Origin: Daejeonella sp.
Lineage (GTDB): Bacteria; Bacteroidota; Bacteroidia; Sphingobacteriales; Sphingobacteriaceae
Length of the DNA stretch: 64,000 nt
Reading direction: 5' to 3'
NCBI RefSeq assembly: GCF_030684675.1
Contig: NZ_JAUXXZ010000016.1
Span: forward strand, 62,001 to 126,000
Made by a program: the position numbers and the translations under genes. This document shows positions 56,984-60,410 of the stretch, one piece after another; the first letter of the stretch is position 1, and each line of letters begins with the position of its first letter. The notes beneath the pieces are model-generated. The model was not told the DNA's origin. It searched no databases and was given only the letters and a program-made list of their open reading frames with translations.

Positions 56984-57081
56984 ACATTCTCGAATAAAAG
57001 AATCGAAATAATTCTTTGGGAGAAATAACATGCATTTTGTTATTCGATCGCAGCCTCTTGCCAATTACGAGTACAGCCCCG

Positions 57082-57167
57082 TGTCATTGCGAGGAGGCAC
57101 GACGAAGCAATCCCATGACGTTTAGCACTATTAGTAAGGAGATTGCCACGCTGCGCTCGCAATGACA
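57082..57167. repeat. TGTCATTGCGAG inverted repeat
   Basis: Left arm TGTCATTGCGAGGAGGCACG with GACGAAGCAATC, and right arm GATTGCC with CTCGCAATGACA. The outer 12 bp are perfect inverted repeats around an AT-rich centre. This resembles the dispersed 'GTCATTGCGAG...CTCGCAATGAC' repeats seen in many bacterial genomes. Confidence 0.75.
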
Positions 57168-57282
57168 TTCAACTGAGTATTGTAGAAAATTTTTATTTGT
57201 CATGCATAAATTGACTTGAACCTCAGAAATATTAGCTCTAAGCCTTCCCTTACCCTAATCAAAATGTTTTTTTTAAATCATT

Positions 57283-57310
57283 GTAGCATTTCTGTATCCT
57301 GATCCGTCTT
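57283..57310 (+). promoter_or_regulatory. Candidate ECF-type promoter of the sigma cassette
   Basis: TGTAGC and CGTCTT separated by 16 bp resemble the general ECF layout (AAC-like -35, CGTC-like -10). It lies 20 bp before the first gene of the operon and does not fit the housekeeping consensus. Autoregulation by the encoded sigma factor is inferred. Confidence 0.45.
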
Positions 57311-57330
57311 AGATATATAAAACACTATAT

Positions 57331-57780
57331 ATGAGAACTACGGGATTACTTTTACTTTTTTCGATTTTACTTTTTGCAGCATCCTGTTCAGACAAAATTA
57401 ATCTGAGCTTATTGGATGGAAACTATACCGGTCATTACTATTATGCGGGTCCCGGCGAAACCAGGCCTATAAAAAGCCAGAGTACTGTATCAGTCAATCT
57501 TTCTGGCAAAGAATACACTTCAACAGGTGGTGCTTCAAGAATACCGGCCGGAGGAGCCGGTGAATTTAACCTGGTGGACAAAGAAGAAGTTCAGTTTAAT
57601 GATAAACATGTCTGGACTGCCGATTTCGACTGGAACTTAATTCTGAACGGTAGATTTATCTATGAACTTAAAAATGACAGTTTAATTTTGACACGTAAAT
57701 TTGAAATTTGCAAAACTTGCTCAGTTAAGCCGGGAATGTTGCCCGGATCATACCAATACAGATTGAAGAGAACAAATTGA
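57331..57780 (+). CDS. Hypothetical lipoprotein, first gene of the ECF cassette
   Basis: 149 residues. The signal ends in lipobox F-A-A-S-C. The mature protein is beta-rich, with an L-L-D-G-N-Y-T-G-H-Y-Y-Y opening and a single C-K-T-C pair near the C-terminus, and might be a small lipocalin- or META-like barrel. It precedes the sigma gene by 3 bp and is surely co-transcribed with it. It may be an output or sensor of the regulon. Function unknown. Confidence 0.65.
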   Translation: MRTTGLLLLFSILLFAASCSDKINLSLLDGNYTGHYYYAGPGETRPIKSQSTVSVNLSGKEYTSTGGASRIPAGGAGEFNLVDKEEVQFNDKHVWTADFDWNLILNGRFIYELKNDSLILTRKFEICKTCSVKPGMLPGSYQYRLKRTN

Positions 57781-57783
57781 TAC

Positions 57784-58332
57784 ATGTCGAAAACATTCCA
57801 CATTTCTGAATCAGAGCTCATTCAGGAATGCAAAAAAGGCAGTTTAAAGTACCAGGAAATACTATACAAACATTTCTTCAGCTTTGCTATGGGTGTTGGA
57901 ATGAGGTATTTATCTGACCGTGATGATACGCTGGAAGTTGTAAATGACTCCTTTATAAAAGTATTCAAATCAATAAAAGATTTTAAAAATGAACAGAATT
58001 TAAAACCATGGTTGAGCCGGATAGTAGTCAATACAGCTTTAGACAGGAGAAGAAAGGATCTGAAACATCAGTATCTGAGTCCGCTCGAAAATGCCTCAGA
58101 ACTATCTTATCCTGCTCAGGCTTTAGAGAACCTGAATGCCAGGGACATCTGCAAATTATTGGACAAGCTTCCCAATGTACAAAGGATGGTTTTTAATATG
58201 TATGAGATAGACGGGTATAGCCATGAGGAGATTGGAAATATACTTCAGATCCCTGCCAGTTCATCCCGTGTAAATTTAAGCAGGGCAAAAGAAAAATTAA
58301 GGTTAGCCTTCAGTTTAGAACAATCAGCATGA
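57784..58332 (+). CDS. ECF-type RNA polymerase sigma factor
   Basis: 182 residues with sigma region 2 (Y-L-S-D-R-D-D-T-L-E-V-V-N-D-S-F-I-K-V-F, residues about 45-65) and region 4 (L-P-N-V-Q-R-M-V-F-N-M-Y, helix-turn-helix E-E-I-G-N-I-L-Q-I-P-A-S-S-S-R-V), and no region 1 or 3. It directs polymerase to a small regulon in response to an envelope signal. It overlaps the next gene by 4 bp (ATGA), which is the probable anti-sigma. Confidence 0.93.
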   Translation: MSKTFHISESELIQECKKGSLKYQEILYKHFFSFAMGVGMRYLSDRDDTLEVVNDSFIKVFKSIKDFKNEQNLKPWLSRIVVNTALDRRRKDLKHQYLSPLENASELSYPAQALENLNARDICKLLDKLPNVQRMVFNMYEIDGYSHEEIGNILQIPASSSRVNLSRAKEKLRLAFSLEQSA

Positions 58333-59615
58333 AAGAAACGGAAGATCAGAGAATTGCAGCTAAATTCCACCAGGTTTTCGATGATTTCGAAGATCTTGCC
58401 TCAAATGAGGGTTGGCTGGAACTGCGCAAGAAGTATCCCGAAGAAAAAAGCAGACCTTTGTTCTTTTGGATCAGTTCTGCTGCTGCATTATTAATCCTGT
58501 TTTCCGGGCTATGGCTGTATATTCCTGAAATAAAGAAGGAGCATATTACAGCTAAAAACAAAACATCCATTGAGAGTAAAAAAACAGAATCTGAAGCCAG
58601 CTCAACCGCTCCTCAACTAACAATCTCTGCTCCTGCCTCATCCAAATTAATTACGAAAGAATTAAAACCAGGCTCAGATACAAAACCTGCCACTATACTT
58701 AATTCCGCATTTCGGGAAGAAAAAAAATTACTTATTAATCACCCTGCTGATTATTCTAAAATATCAGACAGATTGGTGATTTCTGCTAAGGATTCAGCAT
58801 CTACCTATGAAAATCCTATTGCAAAATTGCTAAAAACTACCGAAGAACCCACAATTAAACAAGACACAATGGTTCTCGCAATTGGAGAAGTCACACAGAC
58901 AGATTACAATTTAAAACCAAAGCCTGAAGAATTAAAACTAGCGGAAGAAAAGGGGAAAAAGTCTGAAAAGAGCAGCAAAAAGAATTTTTCACTCAGTGTT
59001 TATGTCGGTTCCTTCATTAATTATGCAGAAGGCAGTGTGAACAATGTGAATGTGGGTGCCGGTCTTTCATCCGACTTCAGGATTAGTAAGAACCTGAGAA
59101 TTTCGACCGGCCTTAACCTGAGTAAAAACAGCCTTGCCTACAATCAAAATGAACCGTCAAATAATTATGGATCATTTCAGGATGCTAACTCATCAATTGT
59201 TGGAACCCTTGTAGCACTTAGTAATTATGAAGCAGAACTTCTTGGCCTCGATATTCCTGTTAACATTAAATACCTGTTTAATCCCCAGAAAAGTAACACT
59301 TATTTCCTTGCTGGTTTAAGCTCAGGCACTTATCTGAGCGAAAAATACGCTGTTAAGCAATCTAATTTTAACTCATTTGTGGGATCTTCTGCAGTCGCCA
59401 ACAAGCAGGAAATAAGCAGGCAAATGAAAGACTTTGATCTGATGCGCACCCTGAATGTATCTTTTGGATTTAATACCCGCTTAAGCAAAAAGCGAAGCCT
59501 GACAATTGAACCATTTTTAAAATATCCACTGGGCGGACTGGGGAGTGAAAACATCAGATTTGGAGCATCAGGAATAAATGTTAAACTGAATTTTAACTCC
59601 GCAAAAAAACCGTGA
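58329..59615 (+). CDS. Probable anti-sigma protein with periplasmic linker and outer-membrane beta-barrel domain
   Basis: 428 residues. Residues 1-42 are hydrophilic and cytoplasmic (anti-sigma candidate, F-D-D-F-E-D-L-A-S-N-E-G-W). One membrane helix lies at about 45-65, then a Ser/Thr/Lys-rich linker of about 150 residues. Residues about 215-428 form an outer-membrane beta-barrel-like domain (S-L-S-V-Y-V-G-S-F, repeated G-L-N-L/G-L-S-S strands, ending G-I-N-V-K-L-N-F). One chain could span both membranes. The start overlaps the sigma gene stop. No classical zinc anti-sigma motif is present, so the regulatory role rests on position and topology. Confidence 0.75.
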   Translation: MKETEDQRIAAKFHQVFDDFEDLASNEGWLELRKKYPEEKSRPLFFWISSAAALLILFSGLWLYIPEIKKEHITAKNKTSIESKKTESEASSTAPQLTISAPASSKLITKELKPGSDTKPATILNSAFREEKKLLINHPADYSKISDRLVISAKDSASTYENPIAKLLKTTEEPTIKQDTMVLAIGEVTQTDYNLKPKPEELKLAEEKGKKSEKSSKKNFSLSVYVGSFINYAEGSVNNVNVGAGLSSDFRISKNLRISTGLNLSKNSLAYNQNEPSNNYGSFQDANSSIVGTLVALSNYEAELLGLDIPVNIKYLFNPQKSNTYFLAGLSSGTYLSEKYAVKQSNFNSFVGSSAVANKQEISRQMKDFDLMRTLNVSFGFNTRLSKKRSLTIEPFLKYPLGGLGSENIRFGASGINVKLNFNSAKKP

Positions 59616-59956
59616 TGAAACTTAAATTGTTATTCAAAGCAGCACTCCTTTCTGGTGTATGCCTATTGTTCTCATGCGAAAAGTCCAACAGTTCATGCGG
59701 CGGAAATGATCCAATGAATGATCTTCCCTGGTTAGAGCAGGAGATCGGTCGCCTGAGCTCACTAAATCAGTGTTACAATGTTTCAAGATCTACCTATGAG
59801 AAACAAACAGTTTTTATTGTCTCTAACTGTGAACCCAATATAAATAGTGTGCCTCTGCTGTACAACTGTGATGGAAATGTTCTGAACTTATCCGCCGCCA
59901 ACTACCAAAATCTGAAGTTTACCGGATCGATTGAATTGATCTGGAAGAGTAATTAA
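59615..59956 (+). CDS. Hypothetical lipoprotein of the ECF cassette
   Basis: 113 residues from ATG 59615, whose first base is the last base of the upstream stop codon. Lipobox L-L-F-S-C. The mature part (C-G-G-N-D-P, D-L-P-W-L-E-Q-E-I) contains four further cysteines besides the lipidated one, and no family is recognised. Its tight coupling to the anti-sigma/barrel gene argues for a shared envelope function. Confidence 0.65.
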   Translation: MKLKLLFKAALLSGVCLLFSCEKSNSSCGGNDPMNDLPWLEQEIGRLSSLNQCYNVSRSTYEKQTVFIVSNCEPNINSVPLLYNCDGNVLNLSAANYQNLKFTGSIELIWKSN

Positions 59957-59975
59957 ATTATAAACTGAAATACCT

Positions 59976-60410
59976 ATGAACAACATCAATAAATACCTAT
60001 TAGTTCTGGTTTGTTTTACGGGACTTTTAATCAGCTCATGTGAAAAAGATTCCATTGAATTTGACAGTCCCTTTGAACTGAATGAAAATGAAAGTATTGT
60101 CCTGCAGGGAAACAATAATGGTTTAACTATCACATTACAATCAGTTAATGATAGCCGCTGTCCGATAAATGCTTTATGTATAAGTGCCGGTAATGCCCGG
60201 GTTAAATTAAGGATGTCAGATAATTCAGGAGCAGAGACTTTCGCTGAGCTTTGTCTGGGCTTTTGTGACACCGGGAACAATACCGAAGACAGTGCAATAA
60301 TTCGGTTGAACAATAACAGTTATACTGTTTTACTTAAGGAAGTTAACCCTTTTCCGGAACTCGGTAAAAAACAGGACAAAAAAGCCTTACTGATCATAAG
60401 AAAAGAATGA
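59976..60410 (+). CDS. Hypothetical lipoprotein with D-S-R-C-P...C...A-G-N-A motif
   Basis: 144 residues, lipobox L-I-S-S-C. The segment N-D-S-R-C-P-I-N-A-L-C-I-S-A-G-N-A-R-V-K-L is a recognisable signature of a family of small Bacteroidota lipoproteins, whose two cysteines probably form a disulfide. Another C-L-G-F-C pair follows. It is the last gene of the ECF cassette and ends 1 bp from the convergent permease gene. Function unknown. Confidence 0.65.
   Translation: MNNINKYLLVLVCFTGLLISSCEKDSIEFDSPFELNENESIVLQGNNNGLTITLQSVNDSRCPINALCISAGNARVKLRMSDNSGAETFAELCLGFCDTGNNTEDSAIIRLNNNSYTVLLKEVNPFPELGKKQDKKALLIIRKE

Follow-up and report, generated by a model that had tools for sequence, protein, structure and literature searches.

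A predicted Dma/Reo-type sigma factor operon with a candidate lipocalin-like lipoprotein partner in Daejeonella sp.

In FecI-FecR-TonB signaling, an outer membrane barrel signals to an extracytoplasmic function (ECF) sigma factor via an anti-sigma factor of the inner membrane. Dma and Reo form a more recent class, for which experiments have been reported in gut Bacteroidales (PMC13088901, PMC9308784, PMC13114119). The Dma proteins of Bacteroides thetaiotaomicron are described as comprising an anti-sigma part, a transmembrane (TM) helix, a disordered tether and a C-terminal barrel, with an ECF21 sigma factor encoded adjacently; the hypervesiculation caused by Dma2 deletion requires Das2, and the class is stated to be confined to Bacteroidota (PMC13088901). 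A 2022 study of Phocaeicola presented an unusual anti-sigma factor, predicted to span the periplasm and to carry an outer membrane barrel; an antibacterial toxin induces the gene of its partner sigma factor (PMC9308784). This pair is named EcfO-Reo, and NigD surface lipoproteins depend on it (PMC13114119), with one nigD gene (03762) numbered beside ecfO (03761) and reo (03760) (PMC9308784, PMC13114119). In this report, we focus on a stretch of 64,000 nucleotides from Daejeonella sp. (assembly GCF_030684675.1, contig NZ_JAUXXZ010000016.1, positions 62,001 to 126,000; hereafter the window), in which five genes at 57331-60410 encode a sigma factor, a 428-residue protein starting at 58329 (hereafter the 58329 protein) and three small lipoproteins. 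With a probability of about 0.82, we regard this cluster as a Dma/Reo-type operon, whose sigma factor would be held at the inner membrane, released by an event linked to the outer membrane, and would then transcribe its own operon together with lipoprotein genes.

The original prediction, which was made from the DNA of the window, set the 58329 protein apart from FecR/TonB and RseA relays and thus implied a new kind of one-polypeptide sensor. This idea was rejected, as Dma and Reo had already been described with the same design (PMC9308784, PMC13088901). The structural part of the prediction fared better, as detailed below. The source genome (hereafter the own genome) comprises 4.25 Mb on 84 contigs, and the features of the locus, given with their lengths in amino acids (aa), are as follows.

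57282..57311, + strand: predicted ECF-type promoter, TGTAGCATTT-N13-CGTCTTA (motif class shared with 74 of 80 loci)
57331..57780, + strand: LipoA, lipoprotein of 149 aa, first gene of the operon (lipobox pattern, lipocalin-like AlphaFold2 model)
57784..58332, + strand: ECF sigma factor of the Dma-linked clade, 182 aa (Pfam, phylogeny)
58329..59615, + strand: predicted Dma-type anti-sigma factor, 428 aa (AlphaFold2, fold matches, orthologue alignment)
59615..59956, + strand: LipoB, lipoprotein of 113 aa (weak DUF6970 match, E 0.033, below cut-off)
59976..60410, + strand: LipoC, lipoprotein of 144 aa, assigned to no family (open reading frame call, Pfam)

The list of open reading frames (ORFs) confirmed all five genes and their tight packing, with gaps or overlaps of at most 19 bp: LipoA and sigma are separated by 3 bp, LipoB and LipoC by 19 bp, and the sigma and 58329 genes share the 4-bp overlap (ATGA) that had been pointed out at the outset. 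LipoB may start at GTG 59612 (114 aa) or, by reading, at ATG 59615 (113 aa), so that it overlaps the 58329 gene by 4 bp or 1 bp. The sigma gene encodes a normal ECF sigma factor (Sigma70_r2, E 1.4e-10; Sigma70_r4_2, E 3.4e-13). Each of the three small proteins fits a lipobox pattern, itself a rough criterion, NCBIfam gave no match for any of them, and LipoB and LipoC are local genes, with homologues in 8 and 10 of 80 related loci, respectively.

The sigma gene and the 58329 gene stay paired in related genomes. The closest named relatives of the 58329 protein, from metagenome-assembled genomes of Sphingobacteriales and Daejeonella, share 88% and 87% identity over the full 428 residues, and matches occur in 119 of 151 genomes of the GTDB family, the weaker ones resembling paralogues. 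Two sets of loci were compared: 31 loci holding the best-scoring matches only, two of them from the own genome, and 80 loci that partly share genomes with the first set and are not independent of one another, since they are the best 80 of 119 relatives and mostly from Mucilaginibacter. The sigma gene adjoins the 58329 homologue in 31/31 and in 80/80 loci, so that the association is not due to chance.

A promoter motif obtained by comparing the loci suggests that the operon is transcribed by its own sigma factor. Over the stretch from mazG (or from 900 bp upstream) to the sigma start, TGT-N-R-C-N15..18-CGT[A/C] is found in 74 of the 80 loci, whereas 40 dinucleotide-shuffled sets gave 1.5 on average and at most 4; a stricter form is found in 60 of the 80 (shuffled mean 0.15, maximum 1). 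The motif precedes lipoA or the sigma gene, whichever comes first, and many Mucilaginibacter loci have one copy before the lipoprotein gene and another before the sigma gene; in the window, the predicted promoter lies 19 bases before the lipoA start. The sequence CGTCT alone was also tried, and was discarded as mostly noise (11/80 loci) in favor of this better motif. In ten Mucilaginibacter genomes, TGTARCGTTTN{12,14}CGTA gave 28 matches as against 1 for the reversed control, of which 15 lie at this operon and 13 elsewhere, and nine of the latter stand tens of bases upstream of a gene for a small lipoprotein (judged by eye), as follows.

Unlinked copies before lipoprotein genes: loci L161, L166, L168, L175, L180, L183, L185, L186 and L187
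Unlinked copies without a lipoprotein gene: loci L169, L171, L173 and L181

The binomial probability of 9 in 13 is 6e-7 at a lipobox background of 10% and 1.5e-5 at 15%, values which overstate the case because some copies are mutually orthologous (e.g., L161 and L183).

The strongest competing explanation is that another ECF sigma factor reads this motif and that the lipoprotein regulon belongs to that factor. Several ECF sigma factors of Flavobacterium may share one CGT-type motif (PMC9723704), and the own genome has 28 Sigma70_r4_2 matches; we consider this explanation unlikely, since the motif at those 74 loci tracks the first gene of the operon and is absent from 30 loci of a paralogous operon. 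In this paralogue, anti-sigma factor and barrel are separate proteins.

L220:885-3084, contig C84 of the own genome: split counterpart operon of three genes (sigma factor; 261-aa TM anti-sigma factor; separate 268-aa outer membrane barrel protein, PF13568, E 1.8e-13)

In the 261-aa anti-sigma factor, the long middle region is variable and the C-terminal block conserved; such split anti-sigma factors occur in 81 of 101 family genomes. Among the best 30 matches, the three-gene order is kept in all 29 other loci fetched, and 27 of the 30 loci carry a different motif, TGCAAC-N13..20-CATCT, which is present in 0/80 Dma loci and, in 20 mononucleotide-shuffled sets, occurred once in one set and never in the other 19. 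Conversely, the Dma operon motif appears in 0/30 split loci, for which the stretches were shorter (390 bases, as compared with up to 910 at the Dma loci). Because neither motif was found at the loci of the other operon type, it is most likely that the two sigma factors have separate promoter specificities and that each acts on its own operon.

The predicted architecture of the 58329 protein agrees with a link between the two membranes. The AlphaFold2 input was a 29-row orthologue alignment, derived from the 31 loci by omitting L002 (a paralogue from the own genome) and L027 (duplicated N-terminus). The model contains helices at 5-19 and 23-35, a TM helix at 44-63, a disordered tether at 65-216 with a predicted local distance difference test (pLDDT) score below 50 (27-35 in the tether blocks), and an OmpA-like barrel at 220-424 with nine DSSP strands, in which most ten-residue blocks with strands score 84-91. 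The low values for the whole model (pLDDT 58, predicted template modeling score 0.43) are due to the tether, and the nine strands may represent a barrel of eight strands plus one hairpin strand lying outside it. Among the 29 orthologues, both ends of the protein are conserved, namely the motif VFDxYED...GWxxLRK with the TM helix and the barrel, while the tether varies between 143 and 214 residues. Thus, the single polypeptide that had been proposed was recovered by structure prediction and fold comparison, with a short N-terminal helical part, one TM helix, a linker of about 150 residues and a C-terminal barrel of outer membrane type. In one orthologue (L027:1148-2788), and probably also in L109, the N-terminal anti-sigma motif is tandemly duplicated within the protein.

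The C-terminal domain could instead be a soluble periplasmic beta-barrel, which would turn the protein into a conventional one-membrane anti-sigma factor with a periplasmic sensor, but this appears improbable to us. In its favor, the Pfam signal for an outer membrane barrel is weak in the window protein (PF13505, E 0.05), and barrels from outside the outer membrane (PsbO-type, DynF, YceI-like, nitrophorin) do occur in the fold list, although lower down, with Z of 7.7-9.0. Against it, 11 of 29 orthologues, the window protein not among them, match OMP_b-brl_2 at E<=0.01, and the best matches by VIA-align are outer membrane barrels: Legionella porin III (Z 14.2, root-mean-square deviation 5.6), OprF (13.6), NspA (13.4), OmpA (12.8) and OmpW (12.5); in Foldseek, OmpA and Ail lead and the top 10 rows are all outer membrane proteins. 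The soluble domain over residues 215-428, which the original prediction had named as its counter-case, did not appear in the predicted model. A sequence search of the PDB with the 428-aa protein gave no match at E<=1, and NCBIfam gave nothing convincing (best E 0.066, far below cut-off).

Comparison with described Dma proteins was made through synteny. A search for DUF4943 neighbors revealed loci in 3 of 296 genomes (L153, L154 and L155). Two of them, L153 and L154, contain a sigma gene, a 356- or 351-aa protein with a barrel and a TM helix (the latter seen by eye), a DUF4943 gene and, at a greater distance, a gene resembling nitronate monooxygenase (by eye), which matches the gene order of the B. 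thetaiotaomicron dma2 locus, BT_1556-1559 (PMC13088901). At the third, the DUF4943 gene (L155:4494-5015) stands without a sigma-Dma pair in the 8.5 kb examined, so that the link of the BT_1557-type DUF4943 partner to Dma is not a strict one. The profile of the window protein aligned with the barrels of the two Dma2-like proteins in hhalign (94.9%, E 4.6e-8), and it also matches the L153 protein in its N-terminal half (profile positions 5-183, E 9.7e-8). A census with this profile across the phylum (72/296 genomes) does not give the number of Dma proteins, since it mixes barrel-only matches, N-terminal-only matches and probably some weak FecR-like ones.

The phylogeny of the sigma factors points in the same direction. 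Of the 65 rows in a maximum-likelihood tree of sigma factors, 39 Dma-linked ones, including that of the window and the two beside the Dma2-like genes, form one clade (support 100/98), which also takes in two further sigma factors of the own genome that have related anti-sigma factors. Outside this clade lie the 24 other ECF rows, which include one identical pair and come almost entirely from the own genome; one of them is a sigma factor of that genome beside a FecR-like gene (L158, labeled by eye). The tree took 10 orthologues of the 80-locus set, and the duplicate sigma factors L194 and L203 were skipped; 25 of the 28 phylum loci L042-L069 had a sigma gene in the stretch, and L057, L062 and L068, which had none, were omitted, while two of the 28 Sigma70_r4_2 matches of the own genome, L217 and L219, are absent because no sigma ORF was found at threshold. 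The sigma factor of the window, which shares 31% identity with that of L153, thus falls in the group encoded beside Dma proteins, with the ECF21 label following from clade placement.

Taken together, the 58329 protein has the tested Dma features, namely predicted N-terminal helices before a single TM helix, a long tether, a C-terminal barrel and a sequence relationship to two Dma2-like proteins, and we assign it on these predictions to the already named class. The prediction of an anti-sigma factor reaching from the inner to the outer membrane is well supported. Like Dma1 and Dma2 with Das1 and Das2, it combines an N-terminal part, a TM helix, a tether, a barrel and an adjacent ECF sigma factor, and its operon likewise has an additional small gene. 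It differs in that a putative lipocalin-like lipoprotein is encoded 5' of the sigma gene, instead of DUF4943 3' of the anti-sigma gene, and in its organism group and presumably its regulon. The likeness to EcfO-Reo of Phocaeicola vulgatus and Bacteroides fragilis, as described in print, lies in the periplasm-spanning anti-sigma factor with its outer membrane barrel, and in surface lipoproteins (NigD) in the regulon; the numbering nigD-ecfO-reo is the same order in kind as LipoA-sigma-58329. By comparison, FecI-FecR relays use two proteins and a large TonB-dependent receptor, whereas the 58329 protein is one polypeptide with an OmpA-sized barrel; no FecR domain was matched by Pfam in this protein (E<=1) or in the 29 orthologues (E<=0.01). 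An RseA match was likewise absent from Pfam for the 58329 protein, whose predicted barrel is unlike the RseA type.

Several results weigh against the Dma/Reo reading. In the hhalign comparison the N-terminus of the 58329 protein was unaligned to the Dma2-like proteins, and the hidden Markov model of the window protein scored the L153 protein at only 29 bits and missed the L154 protein even at E 10. The N-terminal part itself was modeled with modest confidence (block pLDDT 56-67). In the own genome, the looser motif gave 4 matches as against 9 for the control, without enrichment, and the three matches other than the window's do not precede a lipoprotein gene; TGTNRCRTTN{13,15}CGTMNTA matched only the site in the window, compared with 2 matches for the control pattern. 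On these numbers, a regulon cannot be claimed for the own genome. The remaining alternative, that the barrel is a porin or an export partner of LipoA, LipoB and LipoC with the N-terminus as a mere inner membrane anchor and the sigma factor regulated otherwise, draws on the three lipoproteins of the operon and the frequent lipocalin-like gene, but is the least probable of all, as sigma adjacency is complete while the lipoproteins vary, the N-terminal motif is conserved, and Dma2 and the Phocaeicola anti-sigma factor act through their sigma factors (PMC13088901, PMC9308784).

Under the Dma/Reo reading, family resemblance and gene order suggest that the N-terminal helices hold the sigma factor at the inner membrane, while the disordered tether would cross the periplasm to the OmpA-like barrel, presumably placed in the outer membrane. 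The signal may arise when the outer membrane or the assembly of the barrel is disturbed; it would be relayed through the tether, and the sigma factor would be freed, probably by cleavage of the tether, or by loss of barrel anchoring. Motif positions predict that the freed sigma factor transcribes its own operon from TGTAGCRTTT-N12..14-CGT, LipoA first, and, in relatives, unlinked small lipoprotein genes as well. The likely output would be a positive loop on the operon along with lipoproteins delivered to the outer membrane.

LipoA is the conserved partner among the three lipoproteins. When the lipoproteins of 27 more distant loci were made into a profile, with the window, L070, L071 and L115 left out, it recovered the 57331 product at E 2.2e-10 among 1832 ORFs. 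Relatives lie within 700 bp 5' of the sigma gene in 63 of the 80 loci (the 27 training loci included), and at E<1e-3 the stretches fetched contain none in any other position, leaving 17 loci without one; with the LipoA sequence of the window alone as query, relatives were found in 12 of 80. The AlphaFold2 model (pLDDT 79) has eight strands and appears lipocalin-like, and its best structural matches are Bacteroides lipocalin-like proteins (Z 9.2-9.7; 4gzv, 9.7), followed by designed barrels (8.8-8.9), while Foldseek matches were weak (best E 0.037). The lipobox pattern is passed by 44 of 64 LipoA-type proteins as compared with 69 of 669 other ORFs of at least 150 aa, which marks it as a rough indicator. 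Unlike in EcfO-Reo, NigD was not matched in the 31 LipoA relatives aligned (of the lipoprotein sequences found), a comparison made via Pfam.

A more far-reaching interpretation, which we put forward tentatively, is that Sphingobacteriaceae maintain two parallel leashes from the outer membrane to sigma factors, one fused and one split, with orthogonal promoters. Here, the split barrel would hold the conserved C-terminal peptide of its tethered anti-sigma factor, and in the fused system LipoA, as a surface lipoprotein, would be a co-evolving third component, serving either as output and feedback or as a ligand-presenting co-sensor of the barrel. If true, the fused Dma proteins would be gene fusions of a relay that once consisted of two pieces. 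Since profile comparison gave no relationship between the split barrel and the Dma barrel (0.8%), such a history of fusion or fission is offered as a hypothesis only.

The lipocalin-like partner, the promoter motif and the split form were not found in the parts of the open-access literature searched. The operon shows that the Dma/Reo design is widely conserved in Sphingobacteriaceae, and it offers three testable handles, namely the sigma promoter motif, the conserved lipocalin-like partner and the split version, the last of which would allow the contact between tether and barrel to be studied as two separate proteins. With the lipoprotein regulon in relatives, we consider these additions useful rather than surprising.

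The own genome holds further relatives of the system. On contig C55 (L157:2130-3987), a second sigma gene is paired with a gene for a fused 418-aa Dma-like protein; the region upstream of this pair yielded no match to the promoter motif of the window. On contig C35 (L221:892-3287), the gene of a sigma factor from the same clade is followed by genes for a barrel-less anti-sigma-like protein of 190 aa and for a 414-aa protein assigned to no family. The conserved neighborhood of the Dma loci includes mazG in 77 of 80 cases, and 70 of 80 have a permease gene (lolC-like, labeled by eye). Finally, the intergenic stretch at 57078-57170 of the window resembles a dispersed palindromic repeat, presumably of the repetitive extragenic palindromic (REP)-like kind; a segment of this stretch recurs upstream of the operon at L071.

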